Of a stretch of DNA of 64,000 nt, positions 1 to 3,576 are shown piece after piece. Position 1 is the stretch's first letter; the number at the start of each line of letters is the position of its first letter. The DNA is from a candidate division TA06 bacterium B3_TA06 (GTDB taxonomy: Bacteria; Hydrothermota; Tepidihabitantia; B3-TA06): NCBI GenBank assembly GCA_005223075.1, contig NJBO01000001.1:1-64000 (forward strand), read 5' to 3'. The translations under genes were made by a program, and so were the position numbers. Under the pieces are notes generated by a model, which was not told where the DNA came from, ran no database searches, and saw only the letters and a list, made by a program, of their open reading frames with translations.

Positions 1-451
1 ATACCCCGAAGAGCTTTTCGGTTTTCAGATTGCAGATATCGGCAAGCTCGGGCACCGCCCCGTAGAGCTCGCCGGGCGTGAATGCAGGGATCACCGCGCC
101 GGTGCGATAATCCAGTCTTGAGGCAATAGTACCACCCGTGCCCAGAAGGGTAACGTTCGGCTTGGCAGGGTCGTAAGGGAACTCCTGCTCCGGAATCTTG
201 TAGTGAGCCTTGCGGAAGCCCTTCTCCTTTATCGATTTTATCCTGTCTACCGCCAGACCTATGTTGTAGCCGGTGAAGAGTTTGAGCACCACGTGCAGGT
301 CGTCTGCCTGCTCCGAGCGCGGCAGGATTATGCCTTCAAAGATTCCCTTGTCCGTTTCTATCTCAACCTCCGCCCACACCCTTGCACCCATATACTCAAG
401 CACCTTGCGTGCCCTTCCCCTGTAGCCCTTGAGTTGATCCTTTTCATCCAT
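1..451 (-). CDS. gatD: Glutamyl-tRNA(Gln) amidotransferase subunit D, partial (N-terminal 150 residues)
   Basis: The reading frame starts at ATG 451, behind an AAAGGAAG ribosome site, and runs off the left edge of the window. It has the GatD N-terminal domain (residues about 10-75, with ILPRSE and FTGYNIGL) followed by the start of an asparaginase-like domain with the catalytic-Thr motif LLGTGGTIAS and then AFTPGEL. In Archaea, GatD with GatE converts Glu-tRNA(Gln) to Gln-tRNA(Gln); GatD releases ammonia from glutamine or asparagine. The N-terminal domain and the GTGGTIAS context distinguish it from plain L-asparaginase. GatDE is an archaeal-type enzyme, so its presence among clearly bacterial genes is notable. 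GatE is not in the window. An overlapping forward frame at 203-601 is a shadow of this gene. Confidence 0.88.
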   Translation of the reverse strand, partial: MDEKDQLKGYRGRARKVLEYMGARVWAEVEIETDKGIFEGIILPRSEQADDLHVVLKLFTGYNIGLAVDRIKSIKEKGFRKAHYKIPEQEFPYDPAKPNVTLLGTGGTIASRLDYRTGAVIPAFTPGELYGAVPELADICNLKTEKLFGV

Positions 452-490
452 CACATGCTTCCTTTAAGCCGGGTGTTGATACTGAGAGTG

Positions 491-518
491 ATGATAGTCG
501 GATGTAGCAAAATGTCAA
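491..518 (-). promoter_or_regulatory. Promoter of gatD
   Basis: On the minus strand there is a -35 TTGACA (518-513), a 16-bp spacer and a -10 TATCAT (496-491). The predicted start of transcription near 484 leaves a leader of about 33 nt that contains the gatD ribosome site. The spacer matches the other promoters in the window. Confidence 0.65.
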
Positions 519-542
519 TCCAGCTTGTGGTTGTGGTTGGAG

Positions 543-570
543 TTGAATACTTCAATCTTGTCAGTAGACT
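543..570 (+). promoter_or_regulatory. Promoter of the CaCA exchanger
   Basis: There is a -35 TTGAAT (543-548), a 16-bp spacer and a -10 TAGACT (565-570). The leader of about 25 nt carries an AAGGA ribosome site upstream of ATG 602. Confidence 0.5.
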
Positions 571-601
571 CCTGCGTGGTTTCTACAAGGATTGTGATTA
601 G

Positions 602-1621
602 ATGATCTGGTTGTGGGTGGAGTTTCTTGCATGTGCTGCTGTGATAGTCGCCGCTGGCTACTTCCTGGTGCGCTTCGGGGATGTGATTGCGGAGCGAACC
701 GGCCTCGGACGATTGTGGGCCGGGGTAATCCTTATTGCTACCGCCACCTCATTGCCTGAGCTATTCACCGGGGTTAGCTCCGTTCTCATCTTCGACGTCC
801 CGGATATCGCGGTGGGTTCTCTGCTCGGCTCCTGCGTCTTCAATCTGCTTCTTCTGGTCATCCTCGACTTTGCCTCGAAGAAGCGTTCGTTCTTCGACGG
901 GGTTAATCCGGCATACATCGTGGAAACATCTTTCTCGTTGGTTATGGTAGCAATCGTTGCTCTGGGGTTGTTCTTGTGCAATGCTTTGGAGTGCTTCCCT
1001 TGGGTTTGGCCCGGGAGCCTTCTTATTCCGATTATATACGTCTTTGCTGTACGCGTCACTGTGAGGGAAGGCAGGTATCCTCCTTATACCCAAGAGATGG
1101 TTGCCAGAGAAGAACCCAAGTCGAAGAAACGCTCCAAACAGAGACCTGTCAGTTTAGGCAAAGCTATACTTGGCTATGCGATCTCGGCTGTTCTGGTTAT
1201 TGGTGCCTCGATGTGGTTGCCTGGAGTGGCTGGAAAGATCGCTCAGCGTACTGGTTTGGGCTCTAGTTTCATCGGGGGGATACTTATTGCCCTTACTACC
1301 TCTCTTCCTGAGATCGTTACTACCCTTGTCGCGTTCCGTATAGGTGCGTCTGAGATGGCGTTCTCAAATATCATCGGTTCGAACATGTTCAACATGCTGA
1401 TACTTTCCGTAGACGACATGCTTTACGTGCGTGGCCCGATTTTCTCTGCAGTCTCCGGTGTGCATCTTGCGACCGCGATTATAGTCATGGGTATGACCGG
1501 GGTGGTGATCACCGCGCTTGCCATCCGCAAGCAGCGTCAATTTCTGAGACTTTCCTGGGCAAGCTGGGTGCTTGTAGCAGGTTTCCTTCTAAACACCCTT
1601 ATCTTGGCCCTACTGCGATAG
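602..1621 (+). CDS. Sodium/calcium exchanger family (CaCA, YrbG-like) cation antiporter
   Basis: This 339-residue polytopic inner-membrane protein has the two inverted alpha-repeats of the CaCA superfamily. The first repeat (about residues 35-85) contains ATATSLPELFTG and GSLLGSCVFNLLLL. The second (about 205-265) contains ALTTSLPEIVTTL and NIIGSNMFNMLIL. The two acidic SLPE motifs form the cation-binding site in this family. A basic hydrophilic loop (about residues 165-185, Lys/Arg rich) separates the halves, as expected for a cytoplasmic linker. The family exchanges Ca2+ for Na+ or H+; the substrate of this member cannot be told from sequence. The gene is a single transcription unit with its own promoter. 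Confidence 0.9.
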   Translation: MIWLWVEFLACAAVIVAAGYFLVRFGDVIAERTGLGRLWAGVILIATATSLPELFTGVSSVLIFDVPDIAVGSLLGSCVFNLLLLVILDFASKKRSFFDGVNPAYIVETSFSLVMVAIVALGLFLCNALECFPWVWPGSLLIPIIYVFAVRVTVREGRYPPYTQEMVAREEPKSKKRSKQRPVSLGKAILGYAISAVLVIGASMWLPGVAGKIAQRTGLGSSFIGGILIALTTSLPEIVTTLVAFRIGASEMAFSNIIGSNMFNMLILSVDDMLYVRGPIFSAVSGVHLATAIIVMGMTGVVITALAIRKQRQFLRLSWASWVLVAGFLLNTLILALLR

Positions 1622-1731
1622 GCTTCGTTTCTTGCCCCCACGTAGCGACAGGGATAAGGTGCAGAATTCATAATACTCTATTCGATTACAATATGGCTTA
1701 AAGCCCCAAATTCTCCCGAGAGCCCTTCCCC

Positions 1732-1759
1732 TTGACAATGAAAGGTAGGTGGCTATTAT
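1732..1759 (+). promoter_or_regulatory. Leaderless promoter of the GlmS-like gene
   Basis: A consensus -35 TTGACA (1732-1737), 16-bp spacer and -10 TATTAT (1754-1759) end 8 nt before ATG 1768. The transcript should therefore begin at or next to the start codon, with no ribosome-binding site. Confidence 0.75.
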
Positions 1760-1767
1760 TATCTTCA

Positions 1768-3576
1768 ATGTGCGGGTTCTTCGCAATCTCTTTTTCCAGC
1801 CAACGTTCCGATCTCGGTAAAATCCTCTACCGCGCCGGAACAAGGCTGGCCTACCGTGGATACGACACCGCAGGGGTGGCTACAATCTCTGAAGATGGTA
1901 TCCTTGATCTACGCAAGGACGCGGGAGAGGTTGAGGATCTCAACGAGCGTTTGGGGTTCTCACAGATGACGGGGCAGCGCGGGATCATCCAGCTTCGCTG
2001 GGCAACCTTCGGGTTCCCCAATAAGGCAAACTCCCAGCCCCATCACGATTGCCGTCGCTTTCTGGTAGGTGCCCATAATGGGAATATCATCAACACCCGT
2101 AGCCTGCGCAAGGAGCTTTCCGAGGACGGACACACCCTTATTGGCGAGAACGACGGGGAGGTGATCCTGCATCTTCTTGAGGAACCTTTTTATCGTACCC
2201 GCAATCTTGCCTATGCTGCCCAGGAAGCTGCGGCCAGGATGAAGGGGGCCTATGCTTACGTAACCACCTCCCTTGATGGCGACGGATTTGTCTCTGTCAA
2301 GAACGGTTCCTCCCTCTTTGTAGGTATAGGGGATGGGTTCCGCTGTGTGTCAAGCGATCTGGTGGCTATCCTTGAACTTACCCGAAACGTGATTCAGTTA
2401 CAGGATGGCGATCTTGTTCACTTTACGTGCGATTCCCATAGGGTTTGCAATATTCGGGATCTAGAGGTAGAGATCAATCGCGAGGTGCAGGAGCTTTCGA
2501 TTACTCCTGAGAAGATAACCAAGGGGAACTACCCGCACTTCATGCTCAAGGAGATTCATGAGATCCCTTCGAAGGCTCAGGAACTCATACGTTATCTACC
2601 TAAGGCCGAGCACACCTGTACGGTGATTGAGAAGCTTGCATCGGCACGAAGGATTTTCTTCGTGGGTGCGGGCTCCTCGCACTTTGCAGGATTGCTTGGG
2701 TCCTTCTACTTTGGACGCTTGGCCAAGATACCGGTTACGCCCGCCTTTGGTAGCGAGTTCCTTGAAAAATATCCTGGTTGTGTGGATGAGCGCGACGTGG
2801 TTCTTTTGATCTCCCAGAGCGGGGAGACCAAGGATATAAAGAACGTCCTTGACGCAATCCAGAACCGAACCCAGGTAATCTCCCTTGTTAACAACATCGG
2901 CTCAACCCTTGCCATGCGCTCGAACTACGTAATACCTATAGCCTCGGATTTGGAGATCGCCGTGCCTGCGACCAAGACCTATGTGAACCAGGTGATAGCC
3001 CTGCTTTACCTTGCACTCAAGATTGCACAAACTAAAGGTACTAACGGGCTTTCGGCGCGTGAGTTCCTCTCATTGCCAGATTTACTGCATAGTGTCCTAC
3101 AGGATGAAAGCAAGGTTGCTCCTTTTGCAGAAGAACTTGCCCGCTGGCCCGACGCCTACTACCTAGGCTACGGGATGAGCTATCCGGTGGTGCTGGAGGG
3201 GGCGTTGAAGATGAAGGAGATAACCTATTTGCACGTTGAAGGTATGTATTCCGGGGAGTTTAAGCACGGATCCATCTCCCGGCTTGAGGAGGGATATCCG
3301 GTTCTCTTTGTTGTATCTGAACCTGAGAAGTACTACGTTCTTTCCCACGTAAATGAGGTTCGCACACGCAAGGGTAAAGTTCTGACCATAGGTCCTCCCG
3401 ACGAAGAACTTAAAGCCGAAAGTGACTTGTACTTCAAGCTGCCCGAGGCGCACCCGGTGCTTATGCCTATCCTTTCGACCGTTCCCCTGTATATGATTGC
3501 CTATCGGACCGCGGTAGACAGAGGGTGCAACCCCGATCGGCCTCGCAACATCTCCAAGACCATTACCGTCGATTGA
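1768..3576 (+). CDS. glmS: Glutamine--fructose-6-phosphate aminotransferase (isomerizing)-like
   Basis: The protein makes glucosamine-6-phosphate from fructose-6-phosphate and glutamine, the first step towards UDP-GlcNAc for peptidoglycan and lipid A. I place the start at ATG 1768 because the next codon is Cys2, the N-terminal nucleophile of class II glutamine amidotransferases (MCGFFAI); a longer frame from TTG 1732 would bury it and would start inside the -35 box. The N-terminal glutaminase domain spans about residues 2-215 (RLAYRGYDTAG, GENDGEV). Two SIS sugar-isomerase domains follow (about 280-410 with GAGSSHFAG and LISQSGETKD; about 450-590). It ends in PRNISKTITVD, close to the family C-terminus. 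The length, 602 residues, is normal. It heads a long run of forward genes. Confidence 0.9.
   Translation: MCGFFAISFSSQRSDLGKILYRAGTRLAYRGYDTAGVATISEDGILDLRKDAGEVEDLNERLGFSQMTGQRGIIQLRWATFGFPNKANSQPHHDCRRFLVGAHNGNIINTRSLRKELSEDGHTLIGENDGEVILHLLEEPFYRTRNLAYAAQEAAARMKGAYAYVTTSLDGDGFVSVKNGSSLFVGIGDGFRCVSSDLVAILELTRNVIQLQDGDLVHFTCDSHRVCNIRDLEVEINREVQELSITPEKITKGNYPHFMLKEIHEIPSKAQELIRYLPKAEHTCTVIEKLASARRIFFVGAGSSHFAGLLGSFYFGRLAKIPVTPAFGSEFLEKYPGCVDERDVVLLISQSGETKDIKNVLDAIQNRTQVISLVNNIGSTLAMRSNYVIPIASDLEIAVPATKTYVNQVIALLYLALKIAQTKGTNGLSAREFLSLPDLLHSVLQDESKVAPFAEELARWPDAYYLGYGMSYPVVLEGALKMKEITYLHVEGMYSGEFKHGSISRLEEGYPVLFVVSEPEKYYVLSHVNEVRTRKGKVLTIGPPDEELKAESDLYFKLPEAHPVLMPILSTVPLYMIAYRTAVDRGCNPDRPRNISKTITVD

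Follow-up and report, generated by a model that had tools for sequence, protein, structure and literature searches.

The window analyzed here is a stretch of 64,000 nucleotides whose base 1 is base 1 of contig C1 in the genome of a WOR-3/Stahlbacteria-type MAG. Its left edge carries the beginning of a gatD gene and, beside it, two genes on the opposite strand:

2 to 451, minus strand: 5' part of gatD, residues 1-150 counted from the ATG, with the remainder beyond the contig end
Residues about 28-75 of the gatD open reading frame, minus strand: GatD N-terminal domain (GatD_N, Pfam match)
GTGGTIASRLDYRTGAV, minus strand: first asparaginase motif of gatD, within the window fragment
1 to 127: stretch base-for-base identical to the gatD gene on contig C26 (L007 10754-10880)
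602 to 1621, plus strand: calcium/sodium antiporter-like gene, divergent neighbor of gatD
1732 to 3576, plus strand: gene that we take from its sequence to be a glmS homologue (glutamine--fructose-6-phosphate aminotransferase)

The open reading frame of the window gatD spans 2-454 on the minus strand, with a GTG at 454 and an ATG at 451, and is open to the left edge; the ATG agrees with the end coordinate given earlier by a sequence-only reading of this DNA. As the window starts at the first base of the contig, it is the assembly that cuts the gene, rather than a frameshift. In Pfam, the frame matches GatD_N (E = 1.1e-13; residues 28-75) and the asparaginase N-terminal domain (1.2e-7), while its top NCBIfam matches are two GatD equivalog models (E about 2e-30), with a GatD equivalog score roughly 60 bits above that of the type I asparaginase model. 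The closest solved structures are GatD of M. thermautotrophicus (1.2e-30) and of P. abyssi (2.9e-23), and every L-asparaginase falls far behind these archaeal enzymes. Taken alone, the window fragment scores about 106 bits on the GatD equivalog model, being too short for the cut-off, and includes the catalytic residue T108. The GatD of a sister species (G057) matches it across all 151 residues, is complete, and is followed by gatE. These matches bear out the sequence-only reading, which had recognized a partial GatD with its N-terminal domain and an asparaginase-type region.

The same genome encodes a full-length pair on another contig:

L007 7891-9816 (contig C26), minus strand: gatE, 641 aa
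L007 9816-11204 (contig C26), minus strand: full-length gatD, all three domains found

GatD of C26 is 89% identical to the window fragment over the shared stretch, matches Pfam GatD_N together with both asparaginase domains (N and C), and reaches 516 bits on TIGR02153 (cut-off 324) and 510 bits on NF003217 (cut-off 310). Its partner GatE scores 515 bits on NF003107 (cut-off 456) and 445 bits on TIGR00134 (cut-off 319.55). In Pfam, GatB_N is matched, PF02637 stays under its gathering score (23.2 versus 27), and the AspRS-like insert domain gives no match as a Pfam family of its own; the full-length equivalog match indicates a complete GatE architecture, including insert, helical and tail region. 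The earlier preference for GatD over L-asparaginase is thus upheld by a full-length gene of the same genome that exceeds the GatD equivalog cut-offs and adjoins gatE. In alignments with about 90 relatives, GatD residues T108, T184, D185, and K263 are invariant in the bacterial clade described below and in both canonical archaeal sequences, and this clade shares the catalytic motifs of GatE with the solved archaeal enzymes. Structure models were built with clade alignments as input for a WOR-3 orthologue (L089) rather than for the window gene. The GatD model (pLDDT 76.5) has archaeal GatD 2d6f and 1zq1 as top PDB matches, and the GatE model (pLDDT 84.5) has 1zq1_C as its top match (TM 0.66/0.81), with 2d6f also found. 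Judged from these modeled close orthologues, GatD and GatE of the window genome are predicted to fold like the solved archaeal GatD and GatE. As far as sequences and models can tell, the C26 pair is best read as a bacterial Glu-tRNA(Gln) amidotransferase whose catalytic residues are intact.

Beyond the first 127 bases, the gatD genes of C1 and C26 diverge in patches. An exact overlap of 127 bases at a contig end is what an assembly-graph fork at k=127 leaves, and the window edge probably represents such a fork between two gatD versions. The patchy identity within gatD resembles recombination or gene conversion. The antiporter-like gene also adjoins gatD on C26 and in the sister genomes G057, G058, and G059, and the position of the glmS homologue is kept in order in G057, G058, and G061. 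Each sister genome has one gatDE locus, with two flank versions among them: the antiporter followed by glmS (G057 and G058), or a WbuX-like gene followed by the antiporter (G059; G060 shows WbuX alone). Both flank versions occur together in the bin that contains the window (L007 7891-13771 versus window 1-3576). The tetranucleotide correlation of C26 with the window is 0.92. Individual pieces of the window give 0.94-0.97, and two further genomes from the family give 0.76 and 0.74. Since the composition of C26 fits the window and both flank versions exist among the sisters, the two gatD versions probably represent haplotypes within a single population; a real duplication is possible.

About 60 loci from different phyla have gatD and gatE side by side on one strand. 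No universal neighbor besides gatE was found around them; glutamine synthetase accompanies a minority, and other neighbors are lineage-specific. Seven loci, from several phyla and both domains (WOR-3, Krumholzibacteriota, Latescibacterota, and Thermoplasmatota), have a glutamine synthetase gene next to or near gatDE, and some loci carry tRNA genes for glutamine or glutamate:

L093 4347-5876: glutamine synthetase near gatDE
L098 2313-3677: glutamine synthetase near gatDE
L104 2546-3967: glutamine synthetase near gatDE
L118 1650-3146: glutamine synthetase near gatDE
L083 3465-4970: glutamine synthetase near gatDE
L098 3755-3828, minus strand: tRNA-Gln(CUG) adjoining gatDE, archaeal locus
L161 269-340, minus strand: tRNA-Gln(CUG) adjoining gatDE, archaeal locus
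L081 4251-4327, plus strand: tRNA-Glu(CUC) upstream of gatE, WOR-3 genome

Three of five glutamine synthetases tested score above the GlnA cut-off, and the divergent ones of L083 and L093 score below it. The tRNA-Glu gene, in G133, is separated from the downstream gatE by about 150 bases. Three of the five credible tRNAs near gatDE are specific for Glu or Gln (chance probability about 0.006, in a test made post hoc), an excess that is at most suggestive of a glutamine/tRNA role. Neighboring glutamine synthetase, tRNA-Gln, and tRNA-Glu genes fit such a role of gatDE. An Rfam scan of 12 gatDE loci returned nothing beyond one tRNA already found, and a tRNA-Glu called by ARAGORN near gatDE of a Caldithrix locus (L138) was rejected as not credible.

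Presence and absence in the window genome were called from family (profile) searches. PF02934 detects one GatB (on C33) and one GatE (on C26). The gatB gene is adjoined by gatA, and the frame directly upstream of gatA ends like GatC; this 72-aa frame is likely the C-terminus of GatC, and its Pfam GatC match (16.9 bits) stays under the cut-off because the frame is a fragment. GatDE is thus additional to GatCAB in this genome and does not replace it. The genome further encodes a single GluRS of the bacterial type and an AsnRS that is truncated by a contig end and scores above the equivalog cut-off; no GlnRS was found by the family search. With AsnRS present, Asn-tRNA needs no amidotransferase, and a lone GluRS in a genome without GlnRS would have to be non-discriminating, as the sequence-only reading had anticipated. 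We infer that the bacterium forms Asn-tRNA directly and Gln-tRNA indirectly, via a GluRS that accepts tRNA-Gln and an amidotransferase, two kinds of which are available. Of the genes that the earlier reading proposed to look for, gatE, gatA, gatB, and the GluRS gene were found, gatC is represented by its probable C-terminus, and GlnRS was not detected. Its suggestion of a lineage with GatDE instead of GatCAB or GlnRS is not supported, since GatA, GatB, and the probable GatC end are present and GatB occurs together with GatE in all eight genomes of the family.

Two candidate diagnostic features proved uninformative. Position 358 of GluRS (T. thermophilus numbering), tried as a test of discrimination, is Arg in nearly all enzymes; it is not diagnostic because the GluRS of the window genome, which should necessarily be non-discriminating, also has Arg, and Arg358 has been described as phylum-specific (PMC3927822). 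The 1-72 pair of tRNA-Gln, tried as a test of GatCAB versus GatDE, is U1-A72 in nearly all bacteria with or without GatDE, and both tRNA-Gln genes of the window genome have this bacterial-type pair. Several GatDE-bearing genomes encode a second, divergent GluRS without the Arg358-equivalent residue (L194, L229, L230, and L231).

Of the 147 genomes of the home phylum, 13 have a GatD_N match, namely the entire window family (8 of 8 genomes, 3 genera) and five scattered others. No GlnRS was found in any of the eight family genomes. Eleven of the 13 GatD genomes have GatB and lack GlnRS, G084 and G133 have GlnRS and lack GatB, and GatDE is the sole route in none of them. GatE-like matches without GatD_N occur in three further genomes, all with GlnRS, as a full-length frame in G103 (C4:2690-3502) and as fragments in G012 (C52:3802-4182) and G128 (C27:2-235). 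For a broader survey, genome_contigs was scanned with the clade alignment and the best 80 loci were taken; this query picks relatives of the WOR-3 clade, and the frequency of canonical GatDE is outside its reach. These 80 loci are mostly bacterial, covering more than 20 bacterial phyla; the others come from a few Thermoplasmata and a single MAG labelled Euryarchaeota. GatB/GatE and GlnRS were searched in 50 of these genomes, 49 of which are bacterial. Twelve of the 49 have GlnRS and GatB, 9 GatB only, 25 GlnRS only, and 3 neither—genome completeness being unreported, the absences are soft and the presences firm. GlnRS, GatB, or both thus accompany GatD in 46 of 49 bacteria, and GlnRS does so in 37. 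The three bacteria with neither are two Coatesbacteria and one Planctomycetota, all with fragmentary genomes. Coatesbacteria were considered as a GatDE-only lineage and rejected as such: neither GlnRS nor a full GatB was found in G152 and G165, but GatB is present in two of four genomes of this phylum, which makes incompleteness an equally likely explanation for G152 and G165.

In the GatD tree, a long, fully supported branch divides all 88 clade members from the GatDs of the two solved archaeal structures, and the sequences of the window family nest among Caldisericota, Zixibacteria, Eisenbacteria, and other bacteria. The GatE tree shows the same split, with the second GatE of an archaeal genome discussed below (G153) grouping with canonical archaeal GatEs; these trees hold only two or three canonical archaeal sequences. 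Phyla are intermixed inside the bacterial clade, so transfers between bacteria are likely, and its few archaeal members look like guests. Across the phyla of this clade (more than 20 bacterial ones and a few Thermoplasmata), GatD is about 70% identical and GatE about 48%, compared to 57% and 55%, respectively, for the two solved enzymes as the canonical archaeal pair. More than 40 positions in GatD and more than 35 in GatE are fixed in the clade and differ from the canonical sequences in the alignment. Judged from these trees and alignments, the window gatD belongs to a distinct, widespread bacterial GatDE clade and is not a recent import from a known archaeon. The earlier idea of a recent or isolated transfer from Archaea thus finds no support in the GatD tree.

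Textbooks and reviews treat GatDE as a marker by which archaeal and bacterial Gln-tRNA synthesis are told apart. According to a 2022 review, GatDE is today confined to archaea and archaea universally lack GlnRS, and the restriction of GatDE to Archaea underpins arguments about the last common ancestor (PMC9499178). Both statements of the review are contradicted by the sequences reported here. A complete chromosome labelled as that of a Thermoplasmata archaeon (CP070751; G153 C1) encodes a full GlnRS (755 bits; L232 4999-6699, minus strand; about 3.897-3.899 Mb on C1). Close to it lies a gene that presumably encodes a class I LysRS. The same chromosome has two GatE loci (L093 and L171), of which one is canonical and the other belongs to the bacterial clade. 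A search of open-access full text, with the subscription literature outside its scope, found no paper on bacterial GatDE. The widespread bacterial clade is apparently undescribed, and NCBI automatic annotation may already be naming its genes.

We consider it probable that GatDE amidates Glu-tRNA(Gln) alongside GatCAB in the window bacterium, as a member of this widespread clade, and its function there is likely conventional. The lone non-discriminating GluRS would charge tRNA(Gln) with Glu, GatD would hydrolyze glutamine, and the freed ammonia would pass to GatE for the ATP-dependent amidation of Glu on what should be tRNA(Gln), yielding Gln-tRNA(Gln). Several observations argue against this conventional role: GatCAB is present and should suffice for the same job, little Glu-tRNA(Gln) is expected in the 25 of 49 surveyed bacteria that have GlnRS and no detected GatB, and the U1-A72 pair of the host tRNA-Gln differs from the A1-U72 pair reported for archaeal GatDE (PMC9499178). 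It is a tentative possibility that the bacterial clade instead has a different job from bulk Gln-tRNA synthesis. It might, for instance, repair tRNA(Gln) mischarged with Glu, serve a single isoacceptor or a second GluRS, or act under stress or nitrogen limitation in a mode tied to glutamine synthetase. The other Gln-tRNA routes in 46 of the 49 surveyed genomes and in all 13 GatD genomes of the home phylum speak for such a job, as do the archaeal chromosome with GlnRS and two GatE genes, the strong conservation of GatD relative to GatE, the many clade-fixed positions, and the second GluRS of some GatDE-bearing genomes. Yet the enzyme has the catalytic and cradle residues of a Glu-tRNA amidotransferase, redundancy by itself is no proof of a new function, and Thermus and Deinococcus, which have GlnRS, also retain GatCAB for Asn (PMC4206432). 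It seems rather unlikely that GatDE of this clade, found in more than 20 bacterial phyla and in a few archaea, has given up bulk Gln-tRNA production for a distinct task, for instance removing Glu-tRNA(Gln) errors or acting on one particular tRNA or in one particular condition; if true, this would explain the coexistence with GlnRS.

The remaining alternatives concern the origin and identity of the gene. A recent transfer of gatD from an archaeon into the window lineage could draw on the fact that GatDE was otherwise described only from Archaea (PMC9499178) and on close homologues in some Thermoplasmata, but it is very unlikely given that GatD is present in every genome of the family across its three genera and that these sequences nest with bacteria, with canonical archaeal GatDs on a very long, fully supported branch. 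The asparaginase fold of GatD and the incomplete window copy might be taken to indicate an ordinary L-asparaginase/glutaminase or a decaying relic. This is highly improbable in view of the GatD-specific N-terminal domain, the gatE partner, the equivalog scores, and strong conservation, and the truncation is a contig end, with full-length copies on C26 and in G057. Archaeal contamination of the bin is hardly credible as the source of an archaeal-looking gene: the genome is a MAG with two gatD versions within one bin, but the gene is flanked by bacterial genes in an order that several independent MAGs of the family share, and the composition of C26 fits the window far better than that of two family genomes does. 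Conventional amidation beside GatCAB is our preferred reading of the window gene. Bacterial GatDE, usually redundant with GlnRS or GatCAB, raises the question of why a cell has two amidotransferases, or one beside GlnRS; should it turn out to repair mischarged tRNA, it would represent a previously undescribed fidelity factor.

Compared to known systems, L-asparaginases I and II share the fold of the catalytic part of GatD, but they are without GatD_N and a gatE partner, and asparaginase models score lower on the window GatD. Bacterial GatCAB catalyzes the same class of reaction, and GatE shares the catalytic domain and YqeY-like tail of GatB; in contrast, the glutaminase subunit GatA is an amidase, whereas GatD is asparaginase-like. 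The A1-U72 pair of tRNA-Gln is a substrate feature of canonical GatDE systems rather than a feature of the protein family. Archaeal GatDE reportedly reads this pair and the tRNA D-loop (PMC9499178), whereas tRNA-Gln of the window genome has U1-A72, as do nearly all other bacterial tRNA-Gln genes examined. The closest likeness is to archaeal GatDE itself (Methanothermobacter, 2d6f; Pyrococcus abyssi, 1zq1), with the same two subunits, domains, catalytic residues, fold, and adjacent genes. However, the bacterial enzymes are only 47-50% (GatD) and 37-38% (GatE) identical to the archaeal ones, form a separate clade on a long branch, and occur in bacteria with U1-A72 tRNA-Gln, beside GatCAB or GlnRS.
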